Assembly: GCF_008727875.1 (NCBI RefSeq)
Contig: NZ_VTWS01000005.1
Location: 558,001-622,000, forward strand
Direction of reading: 5' to 3'
Source of the DNA: Larkinella humicola
Lineage (GTDB): Bacteria > Bacteroidota > Bacteroidia > Cytophagales > Spirosomataceae
Length of the DNA: 64,000 nt
The notes below the pieces were generated by a model. That model saw only the letters and a program-made list of their open reading frames with translations, had not been told where the DNA came from and made no database searches. Below are positions 566-61,589 of this stretch, piece after piece (position 1 is the stretch's first letter; each line of letters opens with the position of its first letter). The translations under genes and the position numbers were made by a program.

Positions 566-580
566 TCAAGGCTTATGCCA
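566..580 (-). promoter_or_regulatory. Sigma-54-like promoter of the truncated permease
   Basis: The reverse strand reads TGGCATAAGCCTTGA: GG at 579-578, ten bases, then GA at 67-66 of the same hundred (567-566). The spacing is that of sigma-54 -24/-12 elements, but the -12 dinucleotide is GA instead of the usual GC. Predicted transcription would start about 20 nt before the ATG at 533. The operator at 633-648 begins 54 bp upstream of the GG. Confidence 0.65.
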
Positions 581-632
581 GAAAACCAAAAGGCTGATAA
601 TTAACGCCATACGCGCATTAAAAACAAAAGAG

Positions 633-670
633 TGTCCGGTGACGGACACTCTTTTGTTCACAAACGGACA
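633..670 (-). promoter_or_regulatory. Pair of palindromic activator sites (UAS), overlapping a 16-bp-stem hairpin
   Basis: Site 1 (633-648) is TGTCCG-GTGA-CGGACA, a perfect palindrome. Site 2 (655-670) is TGTTCA-CAAA-CGGACA. Their centres are 22 bp apart, two helical turns. Site 1 sits inside a longer perfect inverted repeat, 623-638 against 643-658 with a 4-nt loop, followed on the reverse strand by T-rich sequence. It could therefore also act as terminator of the DUF4097 gene upstream. Same site type as at 1945, 12048, 12133, 42562 and 61552. Confidence 0.7.
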
Positions 671-680
671 GGAAGGGGAG

Positions 681-750
681 TGAAGAATTAAGAGTTATGA
701 GTGAAGAGTTATATGCGTCAGCCAACTCTTCACTCACAACTCTTAACTTT
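681..750. repeat. Heptad-word inverted repeat H1
   Basis: The left arm (681-710) consists of GAGTTAT/GAGTGAA-type 7-nt words. The right arm (724-750) is its near reverse complement. The loop contains GCGTCAGCC. It lies directly behind the stop codon of the DUF4097 gene. Confidence 0.75.
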
Positions 751-1790
751 TACCTGTTCACATACACACTCCCGCTCCCGGCGGAGATGCGGACGGGAAC
801 ACCACCTCCGTTCAGACGGCCCCGGACGCGGTCTTTCTCCACCGTTCCGTCGAATTTACTCAGCGGAATATCGACCCGGTTTCCGGACAAATCAAGGTCG
901 ATACCCTGATCCAGCGGCATCCGGACTTTCACGCTGCCCGGCCCACCCGACAGCCGGACGTATTCGCCCAGTTTGGTAATTTCAACGTCCATTCCGCCCC
1001 CGCTGGTGCTGGCTTCAACGCTGCCCGAAATACCCGACAGCCGAACCGAACCGCCAGACGTACCGGCCACGAGTTCGCCCTTGATGCCCTCGCCTTTCAC
1101 ACTGCCGCCACTGGTGCGCGCATTGACCCGGCCGCTCAGGTTGGCCAGATGGACACTGCCACCCGAGGTCCGCAGATCCAGGTTGCCGTCAGAATCTTCG
1201 GCGTGGATGGACCCGCCACTGGTCGACAGGTCGATGTCTTTCCGGCAGCGATCCAGGTGAATGCTCCCACCCGACGTCCGGCCTTTGATCAGCCCTTCGA
1301 CACCGGTCAGGTGCAGGCTTCCACCACTGGTGGCAAAGTTCTGACTCCCCACCAGGTTGCTCAGCCGGATGCTGCCCCCACTGGTGTGCAGGTCGGTTGC
1401 GAAGGTTTTGGGCGTGTATACTTTAAACGAAATGCTGATCGACCGTTTCCAGTCCCAGTTGTCCCGGTTTTTCCGTTTGGCCGTTGCAATGACGGTATTT
1501 CCTTCAACGCCCAGTTTGATGTCGTATTCTTTCAGCCGTTCTTCGATTTCGTCTTTGGAGAGTTTGTTGCTCGGCCAGTTGTTGCCCCGTACGTACATTT
1601 CAACTTTGACGCCACTTGATTGATTGCCTTCTACCGAGATGCTGCCGCCGGAGGTTTCCACCCGAACGGTGTTCAGGCTACCGGAGAAATTCTTGGTCTC
1701 GTAGGGGGTTTCATCGTTGTCCTGGGCAAAAGAATGAAAGGAGAAGGCGATGGCACACGCAGCAGTGAAGAGGAAAGATGAACGTTTCAT
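750..1790 (-). CDS. Secreted DUF4097-type beta-repeat protein with exact 18-residue repeats
   Basis: 346 aa from ATG at 1790 (MKRSSFLFTAAC...). An in-frame ATG at 1856 is rejected because only the 1790 start gives a clean signal peptide (hydrophobic core about residues 6-19, likely cleavage near SFA-Q). The mature part has a short N-terminal region with one TSGGS. It is followed by seven repeats of exactly 18 residues beginning TSGGS (about residues 136-261) and a final TSGGG. Such DUF4097/putative auto-adhesin domains are predicted to fold as right-handed beta-solenoids at the cell surface or periplasm; molecular function is not known. It has a sigma-54-like promoter and an operator of the kind that precedes the permeases, so it probably belongs to the same regulon. 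Confidence 0.88.
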   Translation of the reverse strand: MKRSSFLFTAACAIAFSFHSFAQDNDETPYETKNFSGSLNTVRVETSGGSISVEGNQSSGVKVEMYVRGNNWPSNKLSKDEIEERLKEYDIKLGVEGNTVIATAKRKNRDNWDWKRSISISFKVYTPKTFATDLHTSGGSIRLSNLVGSQNFATSGGSLHLTGVEGLIKGRTSGGSIHLDRCRKDIDLSTSGGSIHAEDSDGNLDLRTSGGSVHLANLSGRVNARTSGGSVKGEGIKGELVAGTSGGSVRLSGISGSVEASTSGGGMDVEITKLGEYVRLSGGPGSVKVRMPLDQGIDLDLSGNRVDIPLSKFDGTVEKDRVRGRLNGGGVPVRISAGSGSVYVNR

Positions 1791-1873: not shown

Positions 1874-1890
1874 GATCAAAGAATATACCA
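1874..1890 (-). promoter_or_regulatory. Sigma-54-like promoter of the DUF4097 gene
   Basis: The reverse strand reads TGGTATATTCTTTGATC: GG (1889-1888), ten bases, GA (1877-1876). It resembles the promoters of both padR genes, including the TTTGATC end. It lies about 85 bp before the ATG at 1790, leaving a leader of roughly 75 nt. Confidence 0.6.
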
Positions 1891-1944: not shown

Positions 1945-1960
1945 TGTCCGGGAACGGACG
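1945..1960 (-). promoter_or_regulatory. Palindromic activator site upstream of the DUF4097 gene
   Basis: TGTCCG-GGAA-CGGACG. It starts 56 bp upstream of the -24 GG at 1889-1888, matching the distance at the other units. No good second copy is found 22 bp away, so this locus appears to have a single site. Confidence 0.62.
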
Positions 1961-4633: not shown

Positions 4634-7060
4634 CTATTCGCTCCGCAGGCTCTTCACCGGATTCATCAATGCGGCTTTGATGGACTGGAAGCTCACCGTG
4701 ACAAACGCGATGAAAACCGCAACGGTGCCGGCCAGTACGAACACCCACCACGGCACGTCGATCTTGTAGGCAAAGTCTTTCAGCCACGCGTTCATGCCAT
4801 ACCAGGCAATGGGCGACGCAATCAGAATGGCAATGAGCACCAGCCGGAGAAAATCTTTCGACAGCAAACCCACAATGCTGGCGGTGGTGGCCCCCAGCAC
4901 TTTCCGAACGCCAATTTCCTTCGTCCGCTGCTCGGCCATGAAAGCCGCCAGCCCGAACAGCCCCAGGCACGCAACCAGAATGGCCAGTACCGAGAACGTC
5001 AGCACGATTTGCCCGACGCGCTGTTCGGCGCGGTACATGGCATCGAAACTATCGTCCAGAAAAGAATAACTAAACGGCATTCCCGGGGCCATTTGCTTCC
5101 ATTTGGCTTCGATCTGCTTCACCAGCGCGGGGATATCCTGACTACTGAGCCGGAACGATACGGCACCTTGATTGGGGTCCATCATCAACGCCACCGAACC
5201 AATATTCTGCCGCAGAGACTCAAAATGGAAGTTTTTCACGACGCCAATCACCGTGTACGTTTTGAAAACTTTACCCTCATCGTCCAGCATCCGCCACACC
5301 CGTTTTCCGATGGGATCTTTAAAACCGAAAACCTTGACGGCGGTTTCATTCAAAATGATTCCGGTTGAATCGGCCCCAAACTCCCGCGAGAAATTCCGGC
5401 CTTCTTTCAGTTCCATGCCCAGGGTCGGGATGTACTCATAATCGACACCCCACTGCTGCGTCGAAACCGCTTTGCTTTGCTCCCGCTGTCCCTCCGGAAA
5501 CAGCGGACTGTCGCTCCGGTTCGAAGGCACGGGCAAATAGCCGGACACCGAACCGTTCGTCACACCGGGCAGTTTTCGCACCTCGTCTTTAAAGGCCTGC
5601 GTCTGCTTTCCCAGCGCATAGGCTTCGTTGATGGTCAGCACCTGATTGCGGTTGAACCCCACTTTGGTCGTCTGAATGAAATTGATCTGGCGATAAACCA
5701 CCATCGTTCCCACAATCAGAATCACCGACATCATGAACTGAAAAACCACCAGCCCGCTCCGCAAACCCGCACTTTTCAGCCCCAGATTGATCTTGCCTTT
5801 CAAGACGCTGATGGGCCGGAACGACGACAGGAAAAAAGCCGGATAACTCCCCGCCAGCAAGCCGACGCCCAGCGGCAACGCGAGCAAAACCGGCAGAAAT
5901 TGCGGCATAAACAGGTGATCGATGGTCAGTTGTTTGCTTGAAATGTCATTGAAAAAGGGTAATGTCAGCGCGACGATCACCAGCGCCAGCCCCATCGCCA
6001 GAATGGCCATCAGCACGGATTCGGTCATAAACTGCCCGATCAATTGCCGTTGCACCGATCCCAGCACTTTCCGAACCCCAACTTCCTTGGCCCGGTTGGC
6101 CGAACGGGCCGTCGAGAGGTTCATGAAATTGATGCAGGCAATCAGCAAAATAAAAATCGCCACCGCCGAGAACGTATATACGTACTGAATGTCACTGTTG
6201 GGGGCCAGTTCAATGTTCTGTTTGGAGCGCAGGTGAATGTCGGGCATCGGAATGAGTGAGTAGTCGATCCGGTTTCCGGATTTACGCAACTGGTCGATCG
6301 TCGTACCGACAAACTCCTGAGCCTGTGGCCCCACATATTTCTGAATGATGGTTTCAAAATTCTGACTAAACCGTTGGGGGTCAACGCCTTCTTTCAGGAG
6401 AATATAGGTTTGGTGGTTATTGCTGAGCCATCTTCCCCACTCATAATTGTCACTTCGCATGCAGACAAAAAAATCGGTATGGAAATGGGAGTTGGTCGGC
6501 ATGTCGCGCATGACAGCCGTTACCCGATAGGTAAACGCATTGTCAAACAGCAGCGTTTTCCCGATCGGATTCTGGTTGCCAAAATGCCGTTTGGCCGCCG
6601 ATTCACTAATCACCACCGTATTGGGTTCCACCAGCGCCCGTTTCGCGTTGCCGACCACCAGCGGCAGCGTAAACACATCGAACAGGGTCGAATCCGCATA
6701 CATGATGTCGTTTTCCCGCAGGCTATTCGTCTGCCCCGTCTGCTTGACGAGAAACGTACCGCGCCCGTGTATCCGCACAAAGTTTTCGACCTGCGGATAA
6801 TCTTTTAGCAAGGTTGGCCCCATCGGATCGGGCGAAACGGCCATGTGCATGTCGTTGCCGCCAAATTTGATATCGGTATTGATCCGGTAGATCCGGTCGG
6901 CTTTTTCGTGAAACCGGTCGAAGCTCAGTTCATCCACGACATAAAGCGTAATCAGCAGACAGCAGGCCAGGCCCGTAGCCAGACCAAAGATATTGATGAA
7001 CGTAAAGCCCCGCTGTTTGCGGAGGTTTCGGATGGCGATTTTGAGGTAGTTTCTGAGCAT
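4634..7060 (-). CDS. Orphan FtsX/MacB-type ABC permease, prefix-less (KVLGSVQ subgroup)
   Basis: 808 aa with the full family layout. Helix 1 is at about 20-42, the MacB-like periplasmic domain at about 45-280, and a first FtsX unit with three helices starts at about 285. Its cytoplasmic coupling stretch is RAKEVGVRKVLGSVQRQL. A fifth helix (about 430-453), a second periplasmic domain and a second FtsX unit (EQRTKEIGVRKVLGA) follow; the C-terminus is NPVKSLRSE. No nucleotide-binding domain is present. The core is closest by eye to the prefix-bearing permease at 33879-36524. It is last in a three-gene run behind the promoter at 11978-11995; inverted repeat H2 separates it from the gene before. 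Confidence 0.93.
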   Translation of the reverse strand: MLRNYLKIAIRNLRKQRGFTFINIFGLATGLACCLLITLYVVDELSFDRFHEKADRIYRINTDIKFGGNDMHMAVSPDPMGPTLLKDYPQVENFVRIHGRGTFLVKQTGQTNSLRENDIMYADSTLFDVFTLPLVVGNAKRALVEPNTVVISESAAKRHFGNQNPIGKTLLFDNAFTYRVTAVMRDMPTNSHFHTDFFVCMRSDNYEWGRWLSNNHQTYILLKEGVDPQRFSQNFETIIQKYVGPQAQEFVGTTIDQLRKSGNRIDYSLIPMPDIHLRSKQNIELAPNSDIQYVYTFSAVAIFILLIACINFMNLSTARSANRAKEVGVRKVLGSVQRQLIGQFMTESVLMAILAMGLALVIVALTLPFFNDISSKQLTIDHLFMPQFLPVLLALPLGVGLLAGSYPAFFLSSFRPISVLKGKINLGLKSAGLRSGLVVFQFMMSVILIVGTMVVYRQINFIQTTKVGFNRNQVLTINEAYALGKQTQAFKDEVRKLPGVTNGSVSGYLPVPSNRSDSPLFPEGQREQSKAVSTQQWGVDYEYIPTLGMELKEGRNFSREFGADSTGIILNETAVKVFGFKDPIGKRVWRMLDDEGKVFKTYTVIGVVKNFHFESLRQNIGSVALMMDPNQGAVSFRLSSQDIPALVKQIEAKWKQMAPGMPFSYSFLDDSFDAMYRAEQRVGQIVLTFSVLAILVACLGLFGLAAFMAEQRTKEIGVRKVLGATTASIVGLLSKDFLRLVLIAILIASPIAWYGMNAWLKDFAYKIDVPWWVFVLAGTVAVFIAFVTVSFQSIKAALMNPVKSLRSE

Positions 7061-7066
7061 AACTTT

Positions 7067-7153
7067 TTAGTTATGAGTGAAGAGTTAAGAATTAAAACGG
7101 CTTGAGCAGTTGGCGACTGCATTTTTAACTCATCACTCTTAATTCTTCACTCT
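7067..7153. repeat. Heptad-word inverted repeat H2
   Basis: The left arm (about 7068-7097, GAGTGAA/GAGTTAA words) pairs with the right arm (about 7122-7152), with one 7-nt word out of register. It fills the gap between two co-directional permease genes. Confidence 0.7.
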
Positions 7154-9551
7154 ATTCCGAACGAAGTGAAGTAACAGGATTCATTAATGCGGCTTTTGCG
7201 GACTGAACCGAAACCGTTGCCAACGTAATGAGGCTGGCCAGCAAACCGGTTGCGCCAAACACCCACCATCCAATCTCGATTCGGTAGGTGTAGTCCTGCA
7301 GCCAGGTGCTCATCAGCCACCACCCCAACGGCGCGGCTACCGCAAACCCCAACAGCACCAGCCGACCAAATTCCCGGCCAAACAGCCAGAGAATCTGCCC
7401 GACACTCGCCCCCAACACTTTCCGCACGCCAATTTCTTTCGTTTTTGATTCAGCCATAAACGACACCAGACCGTATAAACCCAGGCAACCGATCAGGATG
7501 GCAATCAGGGAAAACACCTGCGCAAAACCCAGCATGATGGTTTCGGCGGTGTAGAAGCGATCCATGATTTCGTCCATGAACTGGTAATGAAAGACCAGTT
7601 CGGGAAATAAACCGTTCCAGGTTTTTTCGACCTGCTTCAGCGTTTCGGCGAGGTGAGCCGGACTGACTTTCAGGGCGGCCATGCGGTTTTCGCTAAACGC
7701 TTTAAAAATAACCGTCGGTGCCACCGCCATCCGCAGCGAGTTGACTTGGAAATCGTTCACCACACCCACCACCGTCCGGTCGATGCCCAGCACGTTGAGG
7801 TGTTTCCCCAGAATGGCATCGGGCGAGGGCAAGCCCAGCCGCTTCACCAGCATCTCATTGACAATGATTTCCCTGGCGACGGTATCGCCGGATAGAAAAT
7901 TACGACCGGCCCGTAGTTTCAGGCCAAACAGGGGCACATAGTTTCCGTCCCCAATTTTAGTCTGGGTTTCGAATTTTTCCGGCTCGGCCCGGTTGTCAAA
8001 CGTAAACGGGCTCTTGTTGATGATGGAAGACGCGGGCGGAGCGTTGCCGAAGGCTACGTCCTGAATCGCCCCGATTTGCCGCAACCGACTCCGCAGCGTT
8101 TCCTGCCTGAGCGGATCAGGCGTCGGAACCGGAATGGTCAGAACGGTTTCTTTCGTAAAACCCAAATCGACATTGCGAACATACCGCAACTGCGCCATCA
8201 TCACAAGCACACTGATGACGAAGAGTTGCGTAATGAAAAATTGTACCACGACCAGCCCGCGACGTACCGAAATGCCGCCCACCTGCTCGGTTGTCATTTT
8301 CCGGCGCAAAGCCGCTATTGGATTAAACCCCGACACAATGAGCGACGGATAAAAACCGGCCAGCCCGATCACACACCCAATCAGCAGCAGGAAAAGCAGC
8401 AACGACTTTGGCTGCAGCAGGTCTGTCAGCGAAAAATCGGCGTTGAAAATCGCCATCGTCTGGTTAACCAACGGCAGCCCGGCCTGCGCCAGGGCCAGGG
8501 CCAGCGCCACAGCCGCCAGCGTAATCAGGGCGGTTTCGGTCATAAATTGCCGGAACAACTGCCCCCGGGTGCTGCCCAGTGCCTTCCGAACGCCCACCTC
8601 TTTTGAACGCCGGAGTGCCTGAGCCGTGGCCAGATTGACGAAATTGATGCAGGCTGCCAGCACCAGAAATACCCCAACAATCGCCATCGCATACAGCAGT
8701 TTTAGCTGCATCCGACCGCCGTAGGTCGTATTGAAGTGAATGTCATGCAGAGGTTGGGCGTGAAAATGATAGAATCGGGCATTTTCAGGGGTGTAATATG
8801 TTTGGATAATGCCCGGAAAAACCGCTTCCAACTGGCCGACCGGCGTATTTTCCGGCAGCGTAACGTAGGTCATTTCTTCGCTATTGAGGTCATCCCAGTT
8901 CTGCAACGACCGGGCTTCCAAACCCAACACCGTACTGTAAGAGATATACACCTCATCGCTCAGATTGGTTGCCACCGGATGATCTTTCAGAACGCCGGTC
9001 ACCGTCAGATTCAGGTTGTTGTCCAGTCGCAGGGTCCGGCCAATCGGGTTGGCGTCTCCGAAGTATTTGTGGACGTATTTTTCCGTCAGCACCACGGAAT
9101 TCGGCGCAGTCAGGGCGGTTTTCGGCGTACCGGTTTTCCACTGAAAATCAAATGCCTCGAACAGATCAGGATCGGCAAACGCGACCGTGCGCTCTTCCTG
9201 AAACTTCCGGAGAAAACCGCCATCGGCCCGGGGTATGCTCAGCAAAGTTCCCCGCAGCCGTTTGATCCGGGCGACCGTTTCGATGAAGGGATAATCACGA
9301 CGCAACACCCCGGCCAGTGCCTTCGGCGTTCCCCGCGAATAGGTAGTCGTTTCGTAGGTCAGCTCCGTCACCACGCGGTAGATCCGGTCGGCCTTTTGGT
9401 GGTAGGCATCGAATCCAAGCTGAAACCCGACGACCAGAAAAATCAGAATACCGCACGCCAGCCCGACCGCCAGCCCAATTACATTGAGCAGACTGTAGGT
9501 CCGGTGCCGCAACAAGGTGCGGAAGGCCACTTTGAAGTAGTTTTTTAGCAT
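7152..9551 (-). CDS. Orphan FtsX/MacB-type ABC permease, prefix-less (FVNLATAQA subgroup)
   Basis: 799 aa from MLKNYFKVAF. It belongs to the second core subgroup: the first FtsX unit reads INFVNLATAQALRRSKEVG and continues VRKALGSTRGQL. The central helix is preceded by SVRRGLVVVQFFITQLFV, where the other subgroup has VVFQFxxS-type sequence. The core is strikingly like that of the prefix-bearing permease at 28434-31085. The second FtsX unit has ESKTKEIGVRKVLGA and the tail NPVTSLRSE. Only 4 bp separate its start from the stop of the preceding gene, so the two are co-transcribed and possibly translationally coupled. Confidence 0.93.
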   Translation of the reverse strand: MLKNYFKVAFRTLLRHRTYSLLNVIGLAVGLACGILIFLVVGFQLGFDAYHQKADRIYRVVTELTYETTTYSRGTPKALAGVLRRDYPFIETVARIKRLRGTLLSIPRADGGFLRKFQEERTVAFADPDLFEAFDFQWKTGTPKTALTAPNSVVLTEKYVHKYFGDANPIGRTLRLDNNLNLTVTGVLKDHPVATNLSDEVYISYSTVLGLEARSLQNWDDLNSEEMTYVTLPENTPVGQLEAVFPGIIQTYYTPENARFYHFHAQPLHDIHFNTTYGGRMQLKLLYAMAIVGVFLVLAACINFVNLATAQALRRSKEVGVRKALGSTRGQLFRQFMTETALITLAAVALALALAQAGLPLVNQTMAIFNADFSLTDLLQPKSLLLFLLLIGCVIGLAGFYPSLIVSGFNPIAALRRKMTTEQVGGISVRRGLVVVQFFITQLFVISVLVMMAQLRYVRNVDLGFTKETVLTIPVPTPDPLRQETLRSRLRQIGAIQDVAFGNAPPASSIINKSPFTFDNRAEPEKFETQTKIGDGNYVPLFGLKLRAGRNFLSGDTVAREIIVNEMLVKRLGLPSPDAILGKHLNVLGIDRTVVGVVNDFQVNSLRMAVAPTVIFKAFSENRMAALKVSPAHLAETLKQVEKTWNGLFPELVFHYQFMDEIMDRFYTAETIMLGFAQVFSLIAILIGCLGLYGLVSFMAESKTKEIGVRKVLGASVGQILWLFGREFGRLVLLGFAVAAPLGWWLMSTWLQDYTYRIEIGWWVFGATGLLASLITLATVSVQSAKAALMNPVTSLRSE

Positions 9552-9555
9552 AACT

Positions 9556-11940
9556 CTATTCCGAACGAAGTGACTTCACCGGGTTGGCAATGGCGGCTTT
9601 GACGGATTGATACACCACTGTTATCCAGCAGATCAGTAGCGTCAGCACACACGCGACCACAAACACCCATATGCCGATGTCGGTTTTGTACGGAAAATGC
9701 TGTAGCCAGCGGTCCATCGAATACCAGGCGACCGGAATGGCAATCGGGAATGAGAACAGGACCAGCTTCGTAAAATCTTTGGAAAGCAGCAGCACTACGC
9801 TCGAAACCGACGCGCCCATCACTTTCCGAACGCCGATTTCCTTCACCCGCTGTTCGGTCGTGAATGTCGCCAAGCCAAATAAACCGAGGCAGGCAATCAG
9901 AATCGTCAGACCGGAGAACGCCGTAAAAATCCGGCCCCGCAGTTCGTCGGCTTTGTAGGCCGACTCGAAATCCTGGTCCAGAAACCGGTATTCAAACAGG
10001 CGATCCGGGTAAGTTTCGCGCCATTTCCGGCCAATGAATTCAACGGTTTGATCGGCATTTTTGGCATCGATTTTAATGTGAATCACCCCATTGTTCGGCC
10101 GATACAGCATAATCATCGGTTCGATGGGCATGTAGAGCGACTGCTGGTGAAAATCCTTCACCACGCCCACGACCTTAGCCTCCGGCGGAGCCGACTGACC
10201 GGCCTGCGGCAACCCGCCCAGCAACACTTTTTTGCCCAGCGGTTCTTTCCAGCCCATGCGTTTGACGGCGGCCTGGTTCACCAGCACACCATTGGACGTA
10301 TCCGCCGGAATTTTATCCGAAAAAGCCCGGCCGGCAACCACTTTCATCCCCATCGTTTGCAGGTAATCGTGGTCGATACCCATCGGTTTGAAGCCCATTT
10401 CTTTCAGTCCGGCGTTGGATTCAATGCCGAAAATAACCCGCCCGCCAATGTTGCTGGTGGGCGACGAAGCCGTGGCCACGCTGCGGACGTTCGGATTGGC
10501 CAACAGGTCGCTGCGCAGCCGGTTGTAGCGGTCGCGGGGCTGGCGGTCCTGGTAATCGATGGTCAACACCTGCTCGCGGTTGTACCCCAGATCCTTGTCC
10601 CGCATGTAGTTCAATTGATCGTACACAATCCAGGTACAAATCAGCATGATCAGCGAAATGGCGAACTGAACCACCACCAGCGTTTTCCGGAAAAAACTGC
10701 CACCTTTGGCATTGAACGAGCCTTTCAGCACCGTGGCCGGTTCGAAGGACGACAGATAAAAAGCCGGGTAACTGCCGCTGATAAAACCGGTAAAAACGAC
10801 AATGGAAAGGGCAATCAGCATGAACTGCGGCTGAATCAATTCCCGAAACTGAATCTCTTTTCCCGAAACCGAATTGAAAAACGGGAGCAGCAACGCCACA
10901 AACAGCAGACTCAGCAGGAGCGACAAAACCGTCATCAGCACCGACTCGGTCAGGAACTGGGCCATCAGGGCACTCCGGAGCGAGCCCATCACTTTCCGCA
11001 GCCCCACTTCCTTCGAGCGTTTGGCCGAGCGGGCCGTTGCCAGGTTCATGTAATTGATGCTGGCCAAGAGCAACATGAAAAAGGCGACGGCGCTGAAAAT
11101 GTAGACGTAACTGATATCGCCGTTGGCTTCGCCGTCGAGTTTGGAGTACAGGTGAATGCTCGTCAGCGGCTGCAACTGGTACGTAATCTTGATGCCCATC
11201 CGCTTGAAGATCGACGCCATGTTTTTGTCGTACAGTTGCGGAAACTTGCTTTCCAATATGCTGGTGTCGAAGTTTTTCGGCAAAACCAGGTAGCTGACGA
11301 TGTAAAAACCGCCCCAGCCGTCGGCCTTCCGCTCGTTCGGGCTCAGCGACAGCAGCGCGTTGAACGTAAAATGCGAGTTTCGGGGCACGTCTTCAATGAC
11401 GCCCGTGACCTGATACGAAGTCGTGTCGTTGGTACGCAGCGTCTGCCCCAGGGCAGTACCTTCACCAAAGAATTTCCGGGCGGTTTTCTCGGTCAGCACC
11501 ACGCTGCCGGGCCGGGCCAAAGCGGTTTTGGGGTCGCCCTCGATAAATTTGTGGGTAAAGACGTCGAATACCGTGGAGTCAGCCGCGTAGACCTCTTCTT
11601 CGTAAAACCGCTTCTCACCCTGCCGGAAGGCCACCCGGCCGTTGGGAAAAAACCGCACGTAGTTTTCCACGAAGGGATAGTCCCGTTTCAGTGAGGTCAC
11701 CAGGGGCGGCTGCGTGCTCTGCCACTTGTTGATTTTGTCGGGTTCGGTGATGTACGAGACGATGCGGTAAATCTGGTCGGCTTTTTTGTGGTACCGGTCG
11801 AAACTCAACTCATCGGTAACGTAGAGCAACAGCAACAGGCCGCAGGTGACCCCGATGGTCAGGCCCAGAATATTGATCAGGCTGTAGAATTTGTCCTTCA
11901 GTATATTCCGCCAGGCGATGGTCAGGTAGTTTTTCAGCAT
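9556..11940 (-). CDS. Orphan FtsX/MacB-type ABC permease, prefix-less, first gene of a three-permease operon
   Basis: 794 aa from MLKNYLTIAW. The first FtsX unit carries INYMNLATARSAKRSKEVG with coupling region LRKVMGSLRSAL. The second has EQRVKEIGVRKVMGASVSSV, and the tail is NPVKSLRSE. Eight membrane helices and two large periplasmic domains are predicted. It is the first gene behind the sigma-54-like promoter at 11978-11995, with an expected leader of about 28 nt. The operator pair at 12048-12085 lies 55 bp further up. Divergent from the padR operon. Substrate unknown; an ATPase would have to come from elsewhere in the genome. Confidence 0.93.
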   Translation of the reverse strand: MLKNYLTIAWRNILKDKFYSLINILGLTIGVTCGLLLLLYVTDELSFDRYHKKADQIYRIVSYITEPDKINKWQSTQPPLVTSLKRDYPFVENYVRFFPNGRVAFRQGEKRFYEEEVYAADSTVFDVFTHKFIEGDPKTALARPGSVVLTEKTARKFFGEGTALGQTLRTNDTTSYQVTGVIEDVPRNSHFTFNALLSLSPNERKADGWGGFYIVSYLVLPKNFDTSILESKFPQLYDKNMASIFKRMGIKITYQLQPLTSIHLYSKLDGEANGDISYVYIFSAVAFFMLLLASINYMNLATARSAKRSKEVGLRKVMGSLRSALMAQFLTESVLMTVLSLLLSLLFVALLLPFFNSVSGKEIQFRELIQPQFMLIALSIVVFTGFISGSYPAFYLSSFEPATVLKGSFNAKGGSFFRKTLVVVQFAISLIMLICTWIVYDQLNYMRDKDLGYNREQVLTIDYQDRQPRDRYNRLRSDLLANPNVRSVATASSPTSNIGGRVIFGIESNAGLKEMGFKPMGIDHDYLQTMGMKVVAGRAFSDKIPADTSNGVLVNQAAVKRMGWKEPLGKKVLLGGLPQAGQSAPPEAKVVGVVKDFHQQSLYMPIEPMIMLYRPNNGVIHIKIDAKNADQTVEFIGRKWRETYPDRLFEYRFLDQDFESAYKADELRGRIFTAFSGLTILIACLGLFGLATFTTEQRVKEIGVRKVMGASVSSVVLLLSKDFTKLVLFSFPIAIPVAWYSMDRWLQHFPYKTDIGIWVFVVACVLTLLICWITVVYQSVKAAIANPVKSLRSE

Positions 11941-11977: not shown

Positions 11978-11995
11978 GCTCAACTTCCATGCCGA
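11978..11995 (-). promoter_or_regulatory. Sigma-54-like promoter of the three-permease operon
   Basis: The reverse strand reads TCGGCATGGAAGTTGAGC: GG (11993-11992), ten bases, GA (11981-11980). The start codon is about 40 bp downstream of the -12 element. Confidence 0.62.
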
Positions 11996-12047: not shown

Positions 12048-12085
12048 TGTCCGAAATCGTACAATCGTTTGTCCGCCGATGTACA
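12048..12085 (-). promoter_or_regulatory. Operator pair for the leftward permease operon
   Basis: 12048-12063 is TGTCCG-AAAT-CGTACA and 12070-12085 is TGTCCG-CCGA-TGTACA. The sites start 22 bp apart, and the proximal one is 55 bp from the -24 GG. The second half-site TGTACA in place of CGGACA recurs in the pair before the other padR gene. Confidence 0.68.
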
Positions 12086-12132: not shown

Positions 12133-12170
12133 TGTCCGTTTTGGTACGTCACAATGTCCAAAACCGGACA
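12133..12170 (+). promoter_or_regulatory. Operator pair for the rightward padR operon
   Basis: 12155-12170 is TGTCCA-AAAC-CGGACA. 12133-12148 is the weaker TGTCCG-TTTT-GGTACG. They start 22 bp apart. The proximal site ends 65 bp before the -24 GG at 12235, about one helical turn further than in the other units. Confidence 0.6.
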
Positions 12171-12232: not shown

Positions 12233-12250
12233 TTGGCATTGCATTTGATC
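12233..12250 (+). promoter_or_regulatory. Sigma-54-like promoter of padR operon 1
   Basis: TTGGCATTGCATTTGATC: GG (12235-12236), ten bases, GA (12247-12248). Nearly the same sequence precedes the other padR gene at 42492-42509. It lies inside the upstream extension of the padR reading frame, which supports ATG 12278 as the true start; the leader would be about 18 nt. Confidence 0.68.
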
Positions 12251-12277: not shown

Positions 12278-12616
12278 ATGAAAAGGGCTTTTTTAGGAGA
12301 ATTTGAAGAGGTGGTTTTGTTGACGGTGGCCGTGCTGGACGAAAGCGCGTACGGCGTGACCGTTACGCAGGAAATCGAACAAAAAACCGGGCGGGCGGTG
12401 GGCTTCAGCACGGTTCATACGACGCTGCAACGGCTGGAAGAAAAAGGATACCTGTCGTCGAAAATGAGCGGAGCCACGGCCGAGCGCGGTGGTCGTCGGA
12501 AGCGGTTTTTCACGGTGACTGCCGCTGGTCGCAAAGCACTCATGGAAGTGAAAAGCATCCGTGAGCAGTTGTGGGATGCCCTGCCTCCGCAGACGTTGCA
12601 GTTGATGGGAGGATAA
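12278..12616 (+). CDS. PadR-family transcriptional regulator 1
   Basis: 112 aa from ATG 12278 (MKRAFLGEFEEVVLL). An upstream in-frame start at 12233 would overlap the promoter and is rejected. It is a winged-helix PadR protein: LGEFEEVVLLTVAVL leads the first helix, then YGVTVTQEIEQKTG, a recognition-helix region (STVHTTLQRLEEKGYL) and the wing TAERGGRRKRFFTVTAAGRKAL. It forms dimers in known family members. It is a clear paralogue of the PadR at 42127-42465. It heads an operon with four prefix-domain permeases; the same PadR-permease pairing is known in Acidobacteria. It probably represses or tunes its own operon; the ligand is unknown. Confidence 0.92.
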   Translation: MKRAFLGEFEEVVLLTVAVLDESAYGVTVTQEIEQKTGRAVGFSTVHTTLQRLEEKGYLSSKMSGATAERGGRRKRFFTVTAAGRKALMEVKSIREQLWDALPPQTLQLMGG

Positions 12617-12739: not shown

Positions 12740-15403
12740 ATGAAACCACCAACCCCAAAACCGCCCCGCTGGGCCACCTCCCTGCTCGACTGGCTGGGTG
12801 ATCCCAACACCGTCGAAGAGGTCCAGGGGGATTTGCTGGAACTGTATGCGTATTGGGTGAAAACCGTTGGTGAACGGAAAGCCGATTGGCGGTATGTCCT
12901 GAGTGCGTTGAAATTGTTGCGGCCGCTGGCCAACCGAAAAAAAGCCGAGTCGAATCCATTTTTCCTACATCCTGCTATGGTACGAAACTATTTCAAAATT
13001 GCCCTCCGCAATCTGCTCAAACACAAAGGGTATTCGGGTATCAACATGGGAGGATTGGCGGTAGGGATGGCGGTGGCCCTGTTGACGGGTCTCTGGATTT
13101 ACGATGAATTATCGTTTAACCGGTATCACCAGCATTACGACCGCATTGCCCTGGTAATGCAGAATCAGGTGGTAAATGGCGAACTGCACACGTCGCAATC
13201 CCTGCCGTATCCGTTTATTCAGGAACTGAAAAGTAACTACAGCAGTCCCTTTAAACACATCGTAACCGCAACGCATCTGGACGATCACATTTTAACGGCA
13301 GGTGAAACGAAGCTCTCGAAACGAGGGCAATTCATTGGCGCCGAAGCCCCGGAAATGCTGACGTTGAAGATGGTAGAAGGCACCCGGGCGGGTTTGCAGG
13401 ACCCCCAATCCATTCTACTGTCGGCTTCAACGGCGAAAGCCCTGTTCGGCAACGCTGATCCAATCAATAAACCGGTGAAAATCAATACAGATTGGCTGGT
13501 AAAAGTGACCGGAGTATATGAAGATTTACCCCAAAATACCCAGTTCCATGATGCGCAGTTTCTGGCGTCCTGGGAATATTTTGTGGCCAATAACCGGTAT
13601 ATGAGAGACAAAAAATGGGATAACCACGCCCTTTTAATTTACGTGGAAATTCAGCCGAATACTGACTTTGACAAGGCCACGGCGACCATCAAAGACTCTG
13701 AACTGAACGCCATTCGGCACCTTGAGAGTATGAAGGAAGAAGCCGCAACCCGGCCGCAAATGTGGCTGCATCCGATGCGCGACTGGCATTTGTATTCGGA
13801 TTTCAAAAACGGTGTGGTTGGGAAAGGGCCGGTTCAATACGTCTGGATGGTGGGCCTGATCGGTTTTTTCGTGCTGCTGTTGGCCTGCATCAATTTCATG
13901 AACCTCTCGACGGCCCGCTCCGAAAAACGCGCCAAGGAAGTGGGCATCCGGAAAACCGTCGGTTCGCGTCGTTCCCAGTTGATGGGTCAGTTTTTCAGCG
14001 AATCCCTGCTGGTGGTTTTCCTGTCCTTTCTGATTGCCCTGCTGCTGGCGACGGTTTCGTTGCCGTGGTTCAATAACCTGGCCGCCAAGCAGATGACGAT
14101 TCCCTGGGCGAATGGCTATTTTGGGTTGTTCTGCCTTGGTTTCATTGGGATAACGGGTTTCCTGGCGGGCAGCTATCCGGCCTTGTATTTGACTTCGTTT
14201 CAGCCCATTCAGGTCCTGAAGGGGGGTGGATCGGCGCGGTTGCAGCGGGGTCGGTCGGCTTCCATACCCCGCCAGATTCTGGTAGTGACGCAGTTCACGG
14301 TTTCCATTGCGCTGATCATCAGCACCCTGGTCGTTTACCGGCAGATTCAGTTTGCGAAAAGCCGTCCGGTCGGTTACGCCCGCGACGGGTTGTTGCTGGT
14401 GCCGATGCAGTCGGACGATTTTTACGGAAAAACTGCGTTGCTGCGAAATGAACTGAAAAACACCGGCGTGGTGAGCGAAGTGGCCGAGTCGCAAAGCCCG
14501 ATTACGGGTGTCTGGTCGTCGAATGAGGGATTTAGCTGGAAAGGCATGCCGCCCGGTTTGAACGAGCGATTTGCTACGCTAACGGTTTCGCCCGAATACG
14601 CCGAAACCGTCGGCTGGCAATTTAGTGGGGGCCGGAATTTCTCGAAAGAACTGGCGTCCGATTCCGCCGGGTTTATCATTAACGAAACAGCCGCCAAACT
14701 GCTGGGTTTTCGGCAACCCGTGGGCGAATTCGTCCGCTGGAAGAGCCAATGGATGACCAACAATGTGGAAAAACAATTCCGGATTTTGGGGGTGGTGAAA
14801 GACATGGTGATGGAGTCGCCCTTCAAGCCGATCAAACCCACGGTTTTCTTCCTGTTTGGCTCGCCCAACTGGATCAACATCAAAATCAGGCCCGGAGCTG
14901 ATGCCGGCAACGCGCTATCCCAAATTGAAGCGGTATTTAAAAAGCTGATTCCGGCAGCCCCGTTTGAGTACAAATTTGCTGATGAAGAATATGACGCCAA
15001 GTTCCGGGCCGAAGAACGGATTGGCAAGCTGGCGACCTTCTTTGCGGTTTTGGCCATCTTTATTTCCTGCCTGGGTTTGTTTGGGCTGGCGTCGTTCGTG
15101 GCTGAGCAGCGCACCAAGGAGATTGGCGTGCGGAAAGTGATGGGCGCATCGGTGCTCAACCTGTGGCGTTTGTTGTCGAAAGACTTCATGGTATTGGTCT
15201 TGCTTGCCTTCGGGATTGCCACGCCCGTCGCTGCGTATTTCCTCCGTAGCTGGTTGCAGCAGTACGACTACCGCACCGAGCTTTCCTGGTGGATTTTTGC
15301 CGCATCGGGTGTCGGCGCGCTGGTGATTACGTTGCTAACCGTCAGTTTCCAGAGCATCAAAGCCGCTTTGATGAATCCGGTGAAAAGTCTGCGAAGTGAG
15401 TGA
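12740..15403 (+). CDS. Orphan ABC permease with N-terminal permease-prefix domain
   Basis: 887 aa. Residues 1-79 form the extra cytoplasmic prefix domain (PPRWATSLLDWLGDPNTVEE, then VQGDLLELYAYW and GERKADWRY). The ordinary permease core begins at internal Met80 (MVRNYFKIALRNLL). The first FtsX unit has INFMNLSTARSEKRAKEVG with IRKTVGSRRSQL; the second has EQRTKEIGVRKVMGASVLNL. The tail is NPVKSLRSE. The core has two periplasmic domains and eight predicted helices. It is the first permease of padR operon 1. The prefix sequence is closer to those of its operon mates than the cores are to one another. Confidence 0.93.
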   Translation: MKPPTPKPPRWATSLLDWLGDPNTVEEVQGDLLELYAYWVKTVGERKADWRYVLSALKLLRPLANRKKAESNPFFLHPAMVRNYFKIALRNLLKHKGYSGINMGGLAVGMAVALLTGLWIYDELSFNRYHQHYDRIALVMQNQVVNGELHTSQSLPYPFIQELKSNYSSPFKHIVTATHLDDHILTAGETKLSKRGQFIGAEAPEMLTLKMVEGTRAGLQDPQSILLSASTAKALFGNADPINKPVKINTDWLVKVTGVYEDLPQNTQFHDAQFLASWEYFVANNRYMRDKKWDNHALLIYVEIQPNTDFDKATATIKDSELNAIRHLESMKEEAATRPQMWLHPMRDWHLYSDFKNGVVGKGPVQYVWMVGLIGFFVLLLACINFMNLSTARSEKRAKEVGIRKTVGSRRSQLMGQFFSESLLVVFLSFLIALLLATVSLPWFNNLAAKQMTIPWANGYFGLFCLGFIGITGFLAGSYPALYLTSFQPIQVLKGGGSARLQRGRSASIPRQILVVTQFTVSIALIISTLVVYRQIQFAKSRPVGYARDGLLLVPMQSDDFYGKTALLRNELKNTGVVSEVAESQSPITGVWSSNEGFSWKGMPPGLNERFATLTVSPEYAETVGWQFSGGRNFSKELASDSAGFIINETAAKLLGFRQPVGEFVRWKSQWMTNNVEKQFRILGVVKDMVMESPFKPIKPTVFFLFGSPNWINIKIRPGADAGNALSQIEAVFKKLIPAAPFEYKFADEEYDAKFRAEERIGKLATFFAVLAIFISCLGLFGLASFVAEQRTKEIGVRKVMGASVLNLWRLLSKDFMVLVLLAFGIATPVAAYFLRSWLQQYDYRTELSWWIFAASGVGALVITLLTVSFQSIKAALMNPVKSLRSE

Positions 15404-15405
15404 AA

Positions 15406-15500
15406 AATAAATAACGAATATCGAATAATGAACACCAAATAACGAAGAGGCTTCGCCGACGTCCAACCTTCGATATTCGACGTTCAGTATTCGATATTAA
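15406..15500. repeat. Heptad-word inverted repeat H4
   Basis: GAATAAC/GAATATC words in both arms. The centre (GGCTTCGCCGACGTCCAACC) is identical to that of H7, which lies 8 kb away. Confidence 0.75.
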
Positions 15501-15505
15501 AAAAC

Positions 15506-18160: not shown

Positions 18161-18163
18161 AAA

Positions 18164-18268
18164 GTTAATGAATGATAAATATCAAATGATGAATGTAAAA
18201 TGATAAAGGGCGAATGCAGCCGGAATACTTTATCATTTTACATTCATCATTTAACATTTGATATTGAA
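18164..18268. repeat. Heptad-word inverted repeat H5
   Basis: Arms made of words such as AAATGAT, GATGAAT and GTAAAAT. It is almost identical to H6 in front of the next gene, in both arms and in the centre. Confidence 0.77.
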
Positions 18269-18273
18269 AAAAC

Positions 18274-20946: not shown

Positions 20947-20949
20947 AAA

Positions 20950-21083
20950 GCTAATGAATGATAAATATCAAATGATGAATGTAAAATGATAAAGGGCGGA
21001 TGCAGCCCGGATCCCTTATCATTCGTCCCCGCGCGGGTGGCCACTTTATGAGTTTACATTCATCATTTAACATTTGATATTCA
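20950..21083. repeat. Heptad-word inverted repeat H6 with GC-rich insert
   Basis: Near copy of H5, but the right arm is split by a GC-rich insert at about 21025-21050 (core CCGCGCGGGTGGCCAC). A similar insert sits in H14 at 47471-47490. Confidence 0.75.
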
Positions 21084-21088
21084 AAAAC

Positions 21089-31085: not shown

Positions 31086-31095
31086 GTCAACCTTT

Positions 31096-31197: not shown

Positions 31198-31200
31198 ATT

Positions 31201-36524: not shown

Positions 36525-36530
36525 ATTGCT

Positions 36531-39239: not shown

Positions 39240-39242
39240 TGG

Positions 39243-39367: not shown

Positions 39368-39368
39368 T

Positions 39369-42126: not shown

Positions 42127-42465
42127 TCAAAGGCTCGTCGCCGGCTTAAACGGATTCAGCAAACGCGCCCAGAAGCTGACGCGGACTTCCTGGATTTCCT
42201 GCAACGTCCGACGACCATAGGCCGTCACCGTAAACAGCCGTTTCCGTCGGCCTCCGCGCTCGGCGGTGGGTTCGCCCATTTCCGATTTCAGCATGCCCTT
42301 GTCTTCCAGGCGTTCCAGAGCCGCGTGGACCTGATTCAGCCGCACCGCACGACCGGTCTGCTCGCTGATTTCGTGGGTGATCGCTACGCCATACGCCCCG
42401 CCTTCCATGACGGCCACGGTTAGTAATACGATTTCTTCAAACTCGCCCAAGTAGCTGCGTTTCAT
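42127..42465 (-). CDS. PadR-family transcriptional regulator 2
   Basis: 112 aa from ATG 42465 (MKRSYLGEFEEIVLL). A TTG three codons upstream is disregarded because PadR 1 starts at the same MKR. Winged-helix PadR fold: YGVAITHEISEQTG, recognition region NQVHAALERLEDKGML, wing TAERGGRRKRLFTVTAYGRRTL. It shares the core with PadR 1, but the recognition helix differs, so DNA targets may differ. It heads a run of five prefix-domain permeases. The expected leader from the promoter at 42492-42509 is about 17 nt, almost the same as for PadR 1. Confidence 0.92.
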   Translation of the reverse strand: MKRSYLGEFEEIVLLTVAVMEGGAYGVAITHEISEQTGRAVRLNQVHAALERLEDKGMLKSEMGEPTAERGGRRKRLFTVTAYGRRTLQEIQEVRVSFWARLLNPFKPATSL

Positions 42466-42491: not shown

Positions 42492-42509
42492 GATCAAATG
42501 CCTTGCCAA
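42492..42509 (-). promoter_or_regulatory. Sigma-54-like promoter of padR operon 2
   Basis: The reverse strand reads TTGGCAAGGCATTTGATC: GG (42507-42506), ten bases, GA (42495-42494). It differs from the padR 1 promoter at only two or three positions. Confidence 0.7.
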
Positions 42510-42561: not shown

Positions 42562-42598
42562 TGTACGATTTCGGACAGTTCCTGTCCGCTAATGTACA
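42562..42598 (-). promoter_or_regulatory. Operator pair for padR operon 2
   Basis: 42562-42577 is TGTACG-ATTT-CGGACA and 42583-42598 is TGTCCG-CTAA-TGTACA. They start 21 bp apart, and the proximal site is 55 bp from the -24 GG. The pair resembles the one at 12048-12085 read in the opposite direction. Confidence 0.7.
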
Positions 42599-59040: not shown

Positions 59041-59110
59041 GCGTTCGGAATGAAGAGTTATGAGTGAAGAGTTGGCTGACGCACCCTTAACTCTTCATTC
59101 CGAACGAAGT
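59041..59110. repeat. Inverted repeat H17 reaching into the 3' end of a permease gene
   Basis: Left arm CGTTCGGAATGAAGAGTT at about 59042-59059. The right arm AACTCTTCATTCCGAACG covers about 59090-59107 and includes the stop codon and last codons of the permease at 59095. The loop contains GGCTGACGCA. Class words GAGTTAT/GAGTGAA. Confidence 0.78.
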
Positions 59111-61443
59111 GAGGTTACCGGATTCATGCGGGCGGCTTTGATCGACTGATAGCTCACGGTGAGGAAGGCGATGAAAACCGCCAGCACCCCGGCCACCGCA
59201 AACAGCCACCACGACAGGTCGACCCGGTATTGAAACGTGTCCAGCCATTGTGAAATCGCCCACCACGCCAGCGGAGAGGCCAGCAGCAGCGCGACCAGAA
59301 CCAGTTTCAGGAAGTCTTTTGAAACCAGTGAGACAATGCTGGATACCGACGCACCCAACACTTTCCGAACGCCAATTTCTTTCATCCGCTGCTCCGCCGT
59401 GAAAGCCGCCAGCGCAAACAGTCCCAGACAGGAAATCAGGATGGCGAGTGTTCCAAAGTAATTGATGAGTGTATTGACCTGCTGTTCACCGCGGTACAGT
59501 TTCTCGTAGGCATCGTCCAGAAAATGATACTCAAACGGATAACTCGGATTAAATTTCCGCGTAACCCGTTCCAGTTCGTCGATGGCTTCGGTGGTTTTTC
59601 CCTTCTCCGTCCGTACCAGCAGATAGCTCGTATTGCCCGGAATCAGGGTTAAAATCAGGGGCGTAATCGGACTGTGCAACGATTGCAGGTGGAAATCTTT
59701 CATCAGTCCGATGATTGGGCCTTTGCCCATCCAGAAGCCGACCTGCTGGCCCACCGGATTCTTCATGCCCATCATTTTAGCGGCCGCTTCGTTGATGATG
59801 TACGACGCCGAATCGGCCTTGCGGGCACTCGAAAAATCCCGGCCCTCCACGAGCTGAATATTCATGGTCTTGATAAAATCATAGCCCACCGACATGGTCG
59901 CTGCATTCGAATTCTGATCCGGTTTTTGACCCGGCCAGGTCAAATCGCCGGAGGTAGACTCAATATTGACGGGTAAGCTCATCGTTACCGAGGCCGAAGC
60001 AATCGACGGTGTGCGAATCAGTTCCTGCCGAAAGGCCTCCATTTTCGCATAGGTATCCCCTTCCAGCGGTACGAAGAGGACATTTTCGCGGTCGAGACCC
60101 AGATTTTTAGTGCGGATATAGTCCATCTGATGCGCCACGGCCAGCATACCGATGATCAGAAAAATCGATAACGTAAATTGAAAAATAACCAGCGTCCGGC
60201 GAAACAAAACCGCTCCGGAACCAAACTTCAGGGTGCCTTTCAGAATGCGGATGGGTTGCAGCGACGACAGGAACAAAGCCGGATAACTGCCCGACACAAA
60301 ACCGGTGATCAATACTAGAATCAGAATGCCCAGCCACAGCGTCGGGTCTGCCAGATTCAGCGTGAGGTGTTTGGAGAAAACGGCATTGAAGGTCGGCAAA
60401 ACTACGCTCACGATGCTCAGGGCCAGAAAAACCGCCAACAGGCTCGTCAGTACCGACTCGCTCATGAACTGCCCGATCAGCGAAGACCGCAACGCGCCGA
60501 CCACCTTCCGAACGCCCACTTCCTTCGCCCGCATGGCCGAGCGGGCCGTGGCCAGGTTCATGAAATTGACGCAGGCAATGAGCAGAATAAAGAGGGCTAC
60601 CAATGCAAAAATCCGCACATATTCGATCTTGCCCCCAACGGCCTTTCCGTTCTCATATTTAGCGTATAAATGCACATCCTTCATGGGCTGAAGCGTTGGC
60701 ACAGGCACTTCCTTCCAGTCGGTATTGCGTCGGTAAATCCCCTTCATTCCGGCTTCCGCTTTGGCCGGATCGGCCTTTGGGTCCAGCCGGACGAAGGTCA
60801 TAAACGAGCTGTTGCCCCATTTTTTTTTCCAATCCTCCTCCTGCACGTCGTAATTGATGATCCAGTCGAACTGAAAAGTCGAGTTGCCGGGCAAATCTTC
60901 AATAACCGCGCCAACGGTATAATACGTTTTATTGTCAAATTGCAGGCGTTTTCCGAGCACCTGAGTCGTGCCGAAAAACTTCTCTGCCACCCTCCGCGTA
61001 ATAATAATCTGATCCAGCTTCGAGTGCGCCACCAGTGGACTCCCGACAACGGCGGGATAATCGAAAAGCAGAAAAAAGTCTTTCGTTGCATAAAACCCCT
61101 GTTGCTTCACCGATTTCTCGCCCACTTTCAGGAGTTTTTCTTCCGGAAACTGCACTTTGGCCGCGTAGCGTACTTCCGGCACATCGCGTTTCAAAACCTC
61201 AGCCAGCGGGCCCGGTGTGACGGTATTGGTATAAATGATACCCTGATTGGTGCTATTGGTCCGTACGAAGAAAATGGTATCGAGATGGGGTAAAAACCGG
61301 TCGTAGCTCAACTCGTCATTCACCCAAAGACCAATCATCAGGCTGCACGACATACCGAGAGCCAGGCCAAAAATGTTGATAAAAGAAAAGAGCTTGTTTT
61401 TCAGCAGGCTCCGCCAGGCAATTTTAAGGTAGCTCGTTAGCAT
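59095..61443 (-). CDS. Orphan FtsX/MacB-type ABC permease, prefix-less (KVVGA subgroup), first gene of operon
   Basis: 782 aa, the shortest of the set, from MLTSYLKIAWRSLL. The first helix is GLALGMSCSLMIGLWVNDEL. The first FtsX unit is VNFMNLATARSAMRAKEVG, VRKVVGALRSSL. The second unit is EQRMKEIGVRKVLGASVSSI and the tail NPVTSLRSE. The N-terminal half of the periplasmic domain begins IFFVRTN, where most have IYRVxT. It is the first gene behind the sigma-54-like promoter at 61481-61497, with an expected leader of about 28 nt, as for the permease at 11940. Confidence 0.93.
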   Translation of the reverse strand: MLTSYLKIAWRSLLKNKLFSFINIFGLALGMSCSLMIGLWVNDELSYDRFLPHLDTIFFVRTNSTNQGIIYTNTVTPGPLAEVLKRDVPEVRYAAKVQFPEEKLLKVGEKSVKQQGFYATKDFFLLFDYPAVVGSPLVAHSKLDQIIITRRVAEKFFGTTQVLGKRLQFDNKTYYTVGAVIEDLPGNSTFQFDWIINYDVQEEDWKKKWGNSSFMTFVRLDPKADPAKAEAGMKGIYRRNTDWKEVPVPTLQPMKDVHLYAKYENGKAVGGKIEYVRIFALVALFILLIACVNFMNLATARSAMRAKEVGVRKVVGALRSSLIGQFMSESVLTSLLAVFLALSIVSVVLPTFNAVFSKHLTLNLADPTLWLGILILVLITGFVSGSYPALFLSSLQPIRILKGTLKFGSGAVLFRRTLVIFQFTLSIFLIIGMLAVAHQMDYIRTKNLGLDRENVLFVPLEGDTYAKMEAFRQELIRTPSIASASVTMSLPVNIESTSGDLTWPGQKPDQNSNAATMSVGYDFIKTMNIQLVEGRDFSSARKADSASYIINEAAAKMMGMKNPVGQQVGFWMGKGPIIGLMKDFHLQSLHSPITPLILTLIPGNTSYLLVRTEKGKTTEAIDELERVTRKFNPSYPFEYHFLDDAYEKLYRGEQQVNTLINYFGTLAILISCLGLFALAAFTAEQRMKEIGVRKVLGASVSSIVSLVSKDFLKLVLVALLLASPLAWWAISQWLDTFQYRVDLSWWLFAVAGVLAVFIAFLTVSYQSIKAARMNPVTSLRSE

Positions 61444-61480
61444 CGGTTTCAGCAGAATAGAAAGACGTATCTGTGCTTAC

Positions 61481-61497
61481 TCCCAAATGGCATACCA
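61481..61497 (-). promoter_or_regulatory. Sigma-54-like promoter of the 61443-56608 permease operon
   Basis: The reverse strand reads TGGTATGCCATTTGGGA: GG (61496-61495), ten bases, GG (61484-61483). The -24 half is close to consensus; the -12 half has GG instead of GA or GC. Confidence 0.6.
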
Positions 61498-61551
61498 GAA
61501 TCAGTAAGACATTCACAATCAATTTCTTACTGGAAAGCAAATAAAATAAAA

Positions 61552-61589
61552 TGTCCGCAAACGGACGGTTTTCCGGCCATTTGCGGACA
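61552..61589 (-). promoter_or_regulatory. Operator pair upstream of the 61443 permease
   Basis: 61552-61567 is TGTCCG-CAAA-CGGACG. 61574-61589 keeps only one good half (CGGCCA-TTTG-CGGACA) and starts 22 bp away. The proximal site is 56 bp from the -24 GG. The distal half overlaps the region just behind the stop of the PA14-OmpA gene. Confidence 0.6.

Follow-up and report, generated by a model that had tools for sequence, protein, structure and literature searches.

The 64,000-nt stretch of the Larkinella humicola genome analyzed here (contig NZ_VTWS01000005.1, positions 558,001 to 622,000; hereafter the window) contains six promoter units, each combining a 16-bp palindrome of the TGTCCG-N4-CGGACA type with a -24/-12 element and lying ahead of genes that start at 533, 1790, 11940, 12278, 42465 and 61443. 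These units are very probably sigma-54 promoters of a genome-wide regulon, in which an NtrC-type enhancer-binding protein (EBP), EBP-A, would act from paired palindromes and be accompanied by a paralogue, EBP-B. The architecture of the sites, their conservation, their linkage to the two regulator genes and an association between recognition helix and half-site can be read directly from the genomes and are described in turn.

All six units lie where the original prediction had placed them. A -24 GG and a -12 TTG are found at fixed spacing (GG-N10-GN) in every unit, including the 11940 unit, whose -24 element reads CGG. A second palindrome copy, as had also been claimed, accompanies the first in five of the six, 21-22 bp further from the promoter, if degenerate copies are included; none was found in unit 2. 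The quoted spacing of 54-66 bp holds as a distance, though it runs from the 3' end of the palindrome to the GG and not from the beginning of the palindrome. Units 3 and 4 have in common the intergenic region 11941-12277, which contains four palindromes, two per direction, and in unit 4 the promoter element is one helical turn further from its own palindrome than in the other window units. A relaxed composite scan (palindrome matching at 11/12, a distance of 50-56 or 61-67 up to the base that precedes GG, then GG[CT]A-N6-NTG) recovered exactly these six units and nothing in each of 15 Markov windows, and the strict composite pattern was found 5 times as against 0 in 60 Markov windows. The palindrome alone, with at most one mismatch, gave 19 strand matches in the window against 1.5 expected, most sites being counted on both strands, although at a tolerance of three mismatches there is no enrichment (28 against 32 expected); one further copy (34267-34282) lies inside a permease gene and is without a promoter.

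The original prediction had proposed a genome-wide scan. Using the pattern GTNCG-N4-YGNACA-N42..72-GGNA-N6-TTG, we obtained 17 matches in the 7.86-Mb host genome against 1 in the reversed sequence; over nine genomes of the genus, host included, there were 17-26 sites each and 185 in sum against 4, so that the pattern is not equally common at random positions. Of the six window units, five belong to the 17, unit 4 being missed by one palindrome base; on contig C20 the site of a padR-permease operon is likewise a near-miss, and its spacing is one turn longer. All 17 sites are followed by an open frame whose first possible start lies 3-93 bp after the GG, though the true starts may be further on. 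Orphan MacB/FtsX permeases and padR-permease operons make up part of the targets; the rest are two HlyD efflux operons, the gene for a LiaG-like protein and genes for small exported proteins. The host genome has 114 PF12704 domain matches, corresponding to about 65 MacB-domain genes; when these are grouped by hand into runs by strand and distance, which are not proven operons, a site stands at the head of 14 of 29 runs, which hold 45 of the 65 genes when unit 4 is counted; adding the C20 near-miss brings this to 15 runs and 49 of 65 genes. Within the order, at least one site is present in 36 of 148 genomes, with up to 19 in a genome and one reversed match among the matches listed, and the sites extend to other families. 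A phylum-wide sample searched with a stricter pattern gave matches in 16 of 296 genomes, mostly single ones outside the family, some of which are perhaps due to chance.

The geometry was scored at 70 of 72 site loci (L101 and L081 were left out). The palindrome-to-GG gap is 52-56 in 50 sites and 63-67 in 17, with 44, 46 and 72 once each. At 23 sites adjacent to regulator genes, the gap to the T of TGG is 52-55 (10 sites), 64-65 (6), 74 (2) or 85 (5). The spacings thus follow a ladder of about 10.5 bp: the phase concentration R is 0.77 for the 70 sites and 0.91 for the 23, values matched in none of 20,000 uniform draws each, the sites being related and not independent. A second palindrome stands 20-22 bp out in 48 of the 70 scored sites and in 13 of the 17 host sites (control offsets, 0-4 of 70). 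An IHF-like WATCARNNNNTTR occurs in the spacers of 7 of the 17 host sites against a mean of 0.08 in 300 shuffles, and in 16 of the 70 against 0.31; on the reverse strand it is found in 3 and 11, respectively, against 0.14 and 0.41. The IHF-like WATCAR-N4-TTR is seen in some permease and HlyD-class spacers, mostly about 20 bp before the GG.

With about 65 MacB-domain genes in one genome the permeases are plainly duplicated, and some sites of the sigma-54 regulon might be unused copies left over from the duplication of permease operons. Such remnants fit poorly with spacers that differ in sequence among units while the elements and their phasing are kept, with the exported proteins and HlyD operons among the targets, and with the sites in other families of the order; we regard this explanation as unlikely.

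The host encodes a single RpoN (PF04552, E=1.6e-54) and eleven PF00158 matches, eight strong and three weak. One enhancer-binding regulator outside the window had been predicted; we find the location to be right but identify two paralogous candidates, EBP-A and EBP-B, both with a receiver, a PF00158 AAA+ domain and a Fis-type helix-turn-helix (HTH). EBP-A is divergent from a composite site driving genes for HlyD, an ABC ATPase and three permeases, and has a histidine kinase gene behind it. EBP-B lies in a run headed by a TGTGCG site and made up of HlyD, OEP, a 230-aa gene, two MacB-type permeases, EBP-B and a kinase. Composite sites are thus tied to both, and none is found at the other six strong EBPs within the stretches read around them. 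The 25 best curated models listed (PEP-CTERM response regulator, AtoC, ZraR, NtrC and others) all score below cut-off. EBP-A shares 87-92% identity with its counterparts in three named Larkinella, and no more than 70% with those at the other loci listed; at a threshold of E<=1e-60, 123 of the order's 148 genomes contain a match to it, paralogues counted. Of 80 orthologue loci taken from named records, 30 show the palindrome no more than 500 bp upstream, as against 0 of 80 reversed; 23 of these 30 also have a TGG[CT]A-N6-TTG within 120 bp on the divergent strand, where shuffles give 0.4 of 30.

The half-site goes with the recognition helix of the regulator. In the host, 16 of the 17 sites are of the TGTCCG/TGTACG type and one, before EBP-B's own operon, is TGTGCG. 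Placing the recognition helix by its presumed position in the Fis-type HTH and scoring Phe after [ST]R, we found TGTGCG at all eight Phe-bearing regulators that have a site (host EBP-B and loci L168, L169, L171, L172, L173, L178 and L180), with TGTCCG also present at L169, and at none of five regulators without Phe (TGTCCG at L164-L167, TGTTCG at L170). No site was found at seven further loci of this set, two of them with Phe, and L181, which has no readable EBP, stands outside the counts. The helix phenylalanine is associated with TGTGCG half-sites. L170 (genome G018) may represent a third half-site class: its regulator carries Ser in the helix, and TGTTCG-N4-CGAACA lies upstream. The genome's six other strong PF00158 proteins would allow a sigma-54 regulon driven by an activator outside the linked pair, as linkage does not prove binding; the confinement of composite sites, among the eight, to EBP-A and EBP-B in the stretches read, and the helix/half-site association within their family, make this quite improbable.

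Several results weigh against a regulon under EBP-A and EBP-B. No site was found in 14 of the 29 permease runs, though re-reading with a relaxed rule covered two of the site-less runs and one of these two gained a site. EBP-B is 42% identical to EBP-A, and another EBP, without an HTH, is 41% identical. The palindrome is absent at 11/12 from 50 of the 80 orthologue loci (one, L198, read from the wrong frame), so that in many lineages, such as those of the Mucilaginibacter and Spirosoma loci, the regulator would use another site or place. Mixed palindromes with one TGTGCG half occur without Phe at L241 (Thr, no promoter) and L123 (Ala) of the EBP-A set. The -12 base departs from the textbook C in 68 of the 70 sites and is C in none of the 23 regulator-adjacent elements. 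Finally, the -24/-12 element alone is not enriched genome-wide (14 against 16 reversed). This last point, together with a -12 part that reads TTTG like the -7 box of the main Bacteroidota sigma factor, would suit palindromes that are operators of a repressor or another regulator at main sigma factor promoters (TAnnTTTG box), the GG-N10 being incidental. The TAnnTTTG box was, however, rejected as the promoter, being present in only 2 of the 70 sites; moreover, the TGG[CT]A-N6-TTG elements accompany, at phased distances, orthologue palindromes that were chosen without a promoter criterion, and the sigma-54 activation domains of the linked regulators weigh against a role of the palindromes with the main sigma factor. 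Operators of that kind are very improbable.

A textbook sigma-54 promoter reads GG-N10-GC. At the 70 sites the -12 base is G in 32, A in 19, T in 17 and C in 2, and at the 23 regulator-adjacent promoters with a palindrome it is G in 19 and A in 4; eight regulator-adjacent elements without a palindrome are mixed (A 2, G 1, T 3, C 2). As a control we used grpE promoters (grpE was read at 27 of 30 loci; groES was read at 7 of 9, wrong frames having been taken at two). The grpE -12 base is C in 8 of 9 genus genomes, which had suggested that a missing -12 C is unique to the regulon; the order-wide sample of 23 genomes has A in 15, C in 6 and T in 2, with no G. This control was itself picked by TGG[CT]A-N6-TTG and includes a few elements at odd distances from the chosen start. 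A strict -12 C rule thus does not hold in the clade; the suggestion was rejected and the claim narrowed to -12 G. Of the GA and GG that had been called unusual, GA is ordinary in the order, and G is common here and absent at grpE. In the genus genomes, groES (L146, L148-L153) and grpE (L155-L163) have sigma-54-like elements (TGGCACAATAAGTGAC; TGGCAACTAATTTGC and variants). Upstream of these lie repeats resembling CTGACA/TGTCAG, which suggests a second, chaperone-directed EBP regulon. A TGGCACAGGGTTTGAA element also lies 93 bp before a 149-aa gene at L142 (host C15:405590), which we take to resemble a small heat-shock protein gene.

The exact GAFTGA loop is absent from both EBP-A and EBP-B, which have GAFTDA. 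GAFTDA, GAYTDA or GSFTDA is present at 77 of the 80 orthologue loci (two were unread and at L198 the wrong frame was picked; loops of the EBP-A set were read in 28 of 30), whereas in the other six strong host EBPs the loop ends in TGA (GAFTGA, GSYTGA or GSFTGA). According to the accessible text of the respective sources, in D. vulgaris GAFTDA reportedly counts among the loop variants that remain active, and target operons are given for one regulator of this kind (PMC4641369), sigma-54 was not found in a pull-down with the GAFTDA regulator VfmH of Dickeya (PMC10714721), and a review places the activator loop at the -11/-12 region (PMC7175178). A link between the GAFTDA loop and -12 G is plausible. 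A co-evolved, private activator-promoter pair, with the GAFTGA activators of the same cell opening these promoters poorly, is an unlikely proposition. It is favored by the G at 19 of the 23 regulator-adjacent promoters with a palindrome, as against none of the 23 grpE promoters of the order; the common A or T of the wider 70-site set counts against the pairing, as do the eight mixed palindrome-less elements, on account of which we slightly lowered our estimate.

Coordinates of the promoter units, their target genes and the candidate activators (window positions unless a host contig is named).
Feature	Position	Strand	Remarks
Unit 1, proximal palindrome	633..648	-	TGTCCGTCACCGGACA
Unit 1, distal palindrome	655..670	-	degenerate
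Unit 1, -24/-12 element	566..580	-	TGGCATAAGCCTTGA
Unit 1, permease gene	starts 533	-	runs out of window
Unit 2, palindrome	1945..1960	-	CGTCCGTTCCCGGACA
Unit 2, -24/-12 element	1876..1890	-	TGGTATATTCTTTGA
Unit 2, LiaG-like (DUF4097-type) repeat protein	750..1790	-	NCBIfam LiaG E=1.8e-9, below cut-off
Unit 3, tandem palindromes	12048..12085	-	proximal 12048-12063, distal 12070-12085
Unit 3, -24/-12 element	11980..11994	-	CGGCATGGAAGTTGA
Unit 3, three orphan permeases	4634..11940	-	9556-11940, 7152-9551, 4634-7060
Unit 4, tandem palindromes	12133..12170	+	distal 12133-12148, proximal 12155-12170
Unit 4, -24/-12 element	12234..12248	+	TGGCATTGCATTTGA
Unit 4, padR gene (padR 1)	12278..12616	+	ATG 12278; PF03551 E=8e-11
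Four permeases after padR 1	12740..23746	+	
Unit 5, tandem palindromes	42562..42598	-	proximal 42562-42577, distal 42583-42598
Unit 5, -24/-12 element	42494..42508	-	TGGCAAGGCATTTGA
Unit 5, padR gene (padR 2)	42127..42465	-	PF03551 E=4.6e-10
Five permeases after padR 2	28434..42005	-	
Unit 6, tandem palindromes	61552..61589	-	proximal 61552-61567, distal (degenerate) 61574-61589
Unit 6, -24/-12 element	61483..61497	-	TGGTATGCCATTTGG
Unit 6, first permease	59095..61443	-	
Unit 6 side, four further permeases	56608-59025, 53149-55530, 50656-53064, 47500-49890	-	
EBP-A	C13:205805-207187		receiver, AAA+ with GAFTDA loop, Fis-type HTH
EBP-B	C1:8429-9787		paralogue with Phe in recognition helix

How far unit 6 reaches past its first permease is uncertain, plus-strand ORFs (open reading frames) being present in some gaps. 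Two permeases of the window tested against the ADOP family TIGR03434 scored 288.5 and 340.2 bits, below the curated cut-off of 622.3; among the four permeases after padR 1 the tests covered the first, which carries permease prefix domain 2 and resembles ADOP below the cut-off. Nothing in Pfam matches the supposed DUF4097 gene, even at E<=5, and its sole family match is the sub-cutoff LiaG one. Genes for two histidine kinases stand among the permeases (2304-4628 and 25005-28331); one of the kinases contains TPR, the other GAF/PAS domains. A PA14-OmpA protein (61595-62611) adjoins unit 6.

Both window PadR proteins exceed the PF03551 gathering cut-off (42.2 and 39.8 against 27 bits), and the one tested against TIGR03433, the PadR model of Acidobacteria, is below the curated cut-off. 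A TTTG-N5-CAAA motif continuing from the promoter is present at 8 of 14 padR-class sites as against 1 of 56 others; it is exact in unit 5, beginning at the -12 TTTG, and unit 4 is without an exact copy. It is probably a PadR operator lying over the -12 region and start. Another candidate, the AAATGGCC..GGCCATTT inverted repeat in PadR-class spacers, was judged by eye to be too variable, and only TTTG-N5-CAAA was kept. Imperfect inverted repeats (e.g., GAATATTGAACACTGAATA ... TATTCAGTGTTCATTATTC, by eye) also occur in gaps between the permeases of the padR runs (12620-12739, 15404-15505, 18161-18273 and similar), and are perhaps mRNA hairpins.

From these features we infer how binding, activation, signaling and PadR repression might operate. 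EBP-A would bind 16-bp TGTCCG-N4-CGGACA sites in pairs, the two members facing the same side of the helix at a distance of two turns. From there to the -24 element would be some 52-56 or 63-67 bp, with 74 or 85 bp as further options in relatives. Phosphorylated by the neighboring kinase upon a presumed envelope signal, EBP-A would remodel the RNA polymerase-sigma-54 complex and thereby induce the orphan MacB/FtsX permeases together with efflux operons and exported proteins. EBP-B, with Phe in its recognition helix, would read TGTGCG sites and serve its own efflux operon. In the padR-headed operons the regulon would activate, with PadR adding local feedback through TTTG-N5-CAAA over the -12 and start.

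Some Bacteroidota carry many duplicated orphan permeases, with 28 and 33 ADOP-annotated copies in two Dyadobacter according to the available text of one report (PMC11573002), and about 65 MacB-domain genes here. With up to 49 of these 65 behind one kind of sigma-54 promoter, together with a candidate regulator and kinase, their inducing conditions and function become directly testable. The paralogue pair, with its one-residue link to half-site choice, is a natural experiment on enhancer specificity, and the association of GAFTDA with -12 G is one on -12 sensing by the activator loop.

A computed link between sigma-54 and these permeases is already known: a statistical study of 2025 on the sigma-54 regulons of 33 classes presents, in the text available, the first such link to FtsX-like permeases, with COG0577 enriched in Bacteroidia; its promoters are matrix-scored, and for permeases that text describes neither operator nor activator, nor any geometry or PadR layer (PMC12316311). 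A literature search, most subscription papers being outside its coverage, returned, beyond that link, nothing on the operator or activator family described here or on the control of these permeases. In Flavobacterium psychrophilum SM4 sigma-54 promoters have been mapped by 5'-end sequencing and associated with envelope stress and exported proteins, and the start of its grpE counterpart is assigned to a sigma-54 motif (PMC9723704). That regulon resembles ours in having Bacteroidota sigma-54 promoters and exported proteins, and differs in that the words permease and PadR are absent from the main text of the report and that, in the passages available, activators are not assigned to sites (PMC9723704). 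Phage-shock/Lia envelope-stress modules, as described in the accessible part of one account, recurrently combine the enhancer-binding PspF, the DUF4097 'Toastrack' (LiaG) and PadR-like regulators, unlike the receiver-type activator and orphan permeases here (PMC11237479). The two-repeat permeases beside padR recall the ADOP permeases and TIGR03433 PadR of Acidobacteria, although the members tested fall below those curated cut-offs. The closest likeness in plan is to regulons of the NtrBC, ZraSR and AtoSC type, with RpoN, a receiver-AAA+-Fis activator with a neighboring kinase, paired upstream sites and a -24/-12 promoter; the present system departs from them in its GAFTDA loop, a -12 base that is mostly G, A or T, its orphan permease targets and the sub-cutoff scores of the best curated models listed.

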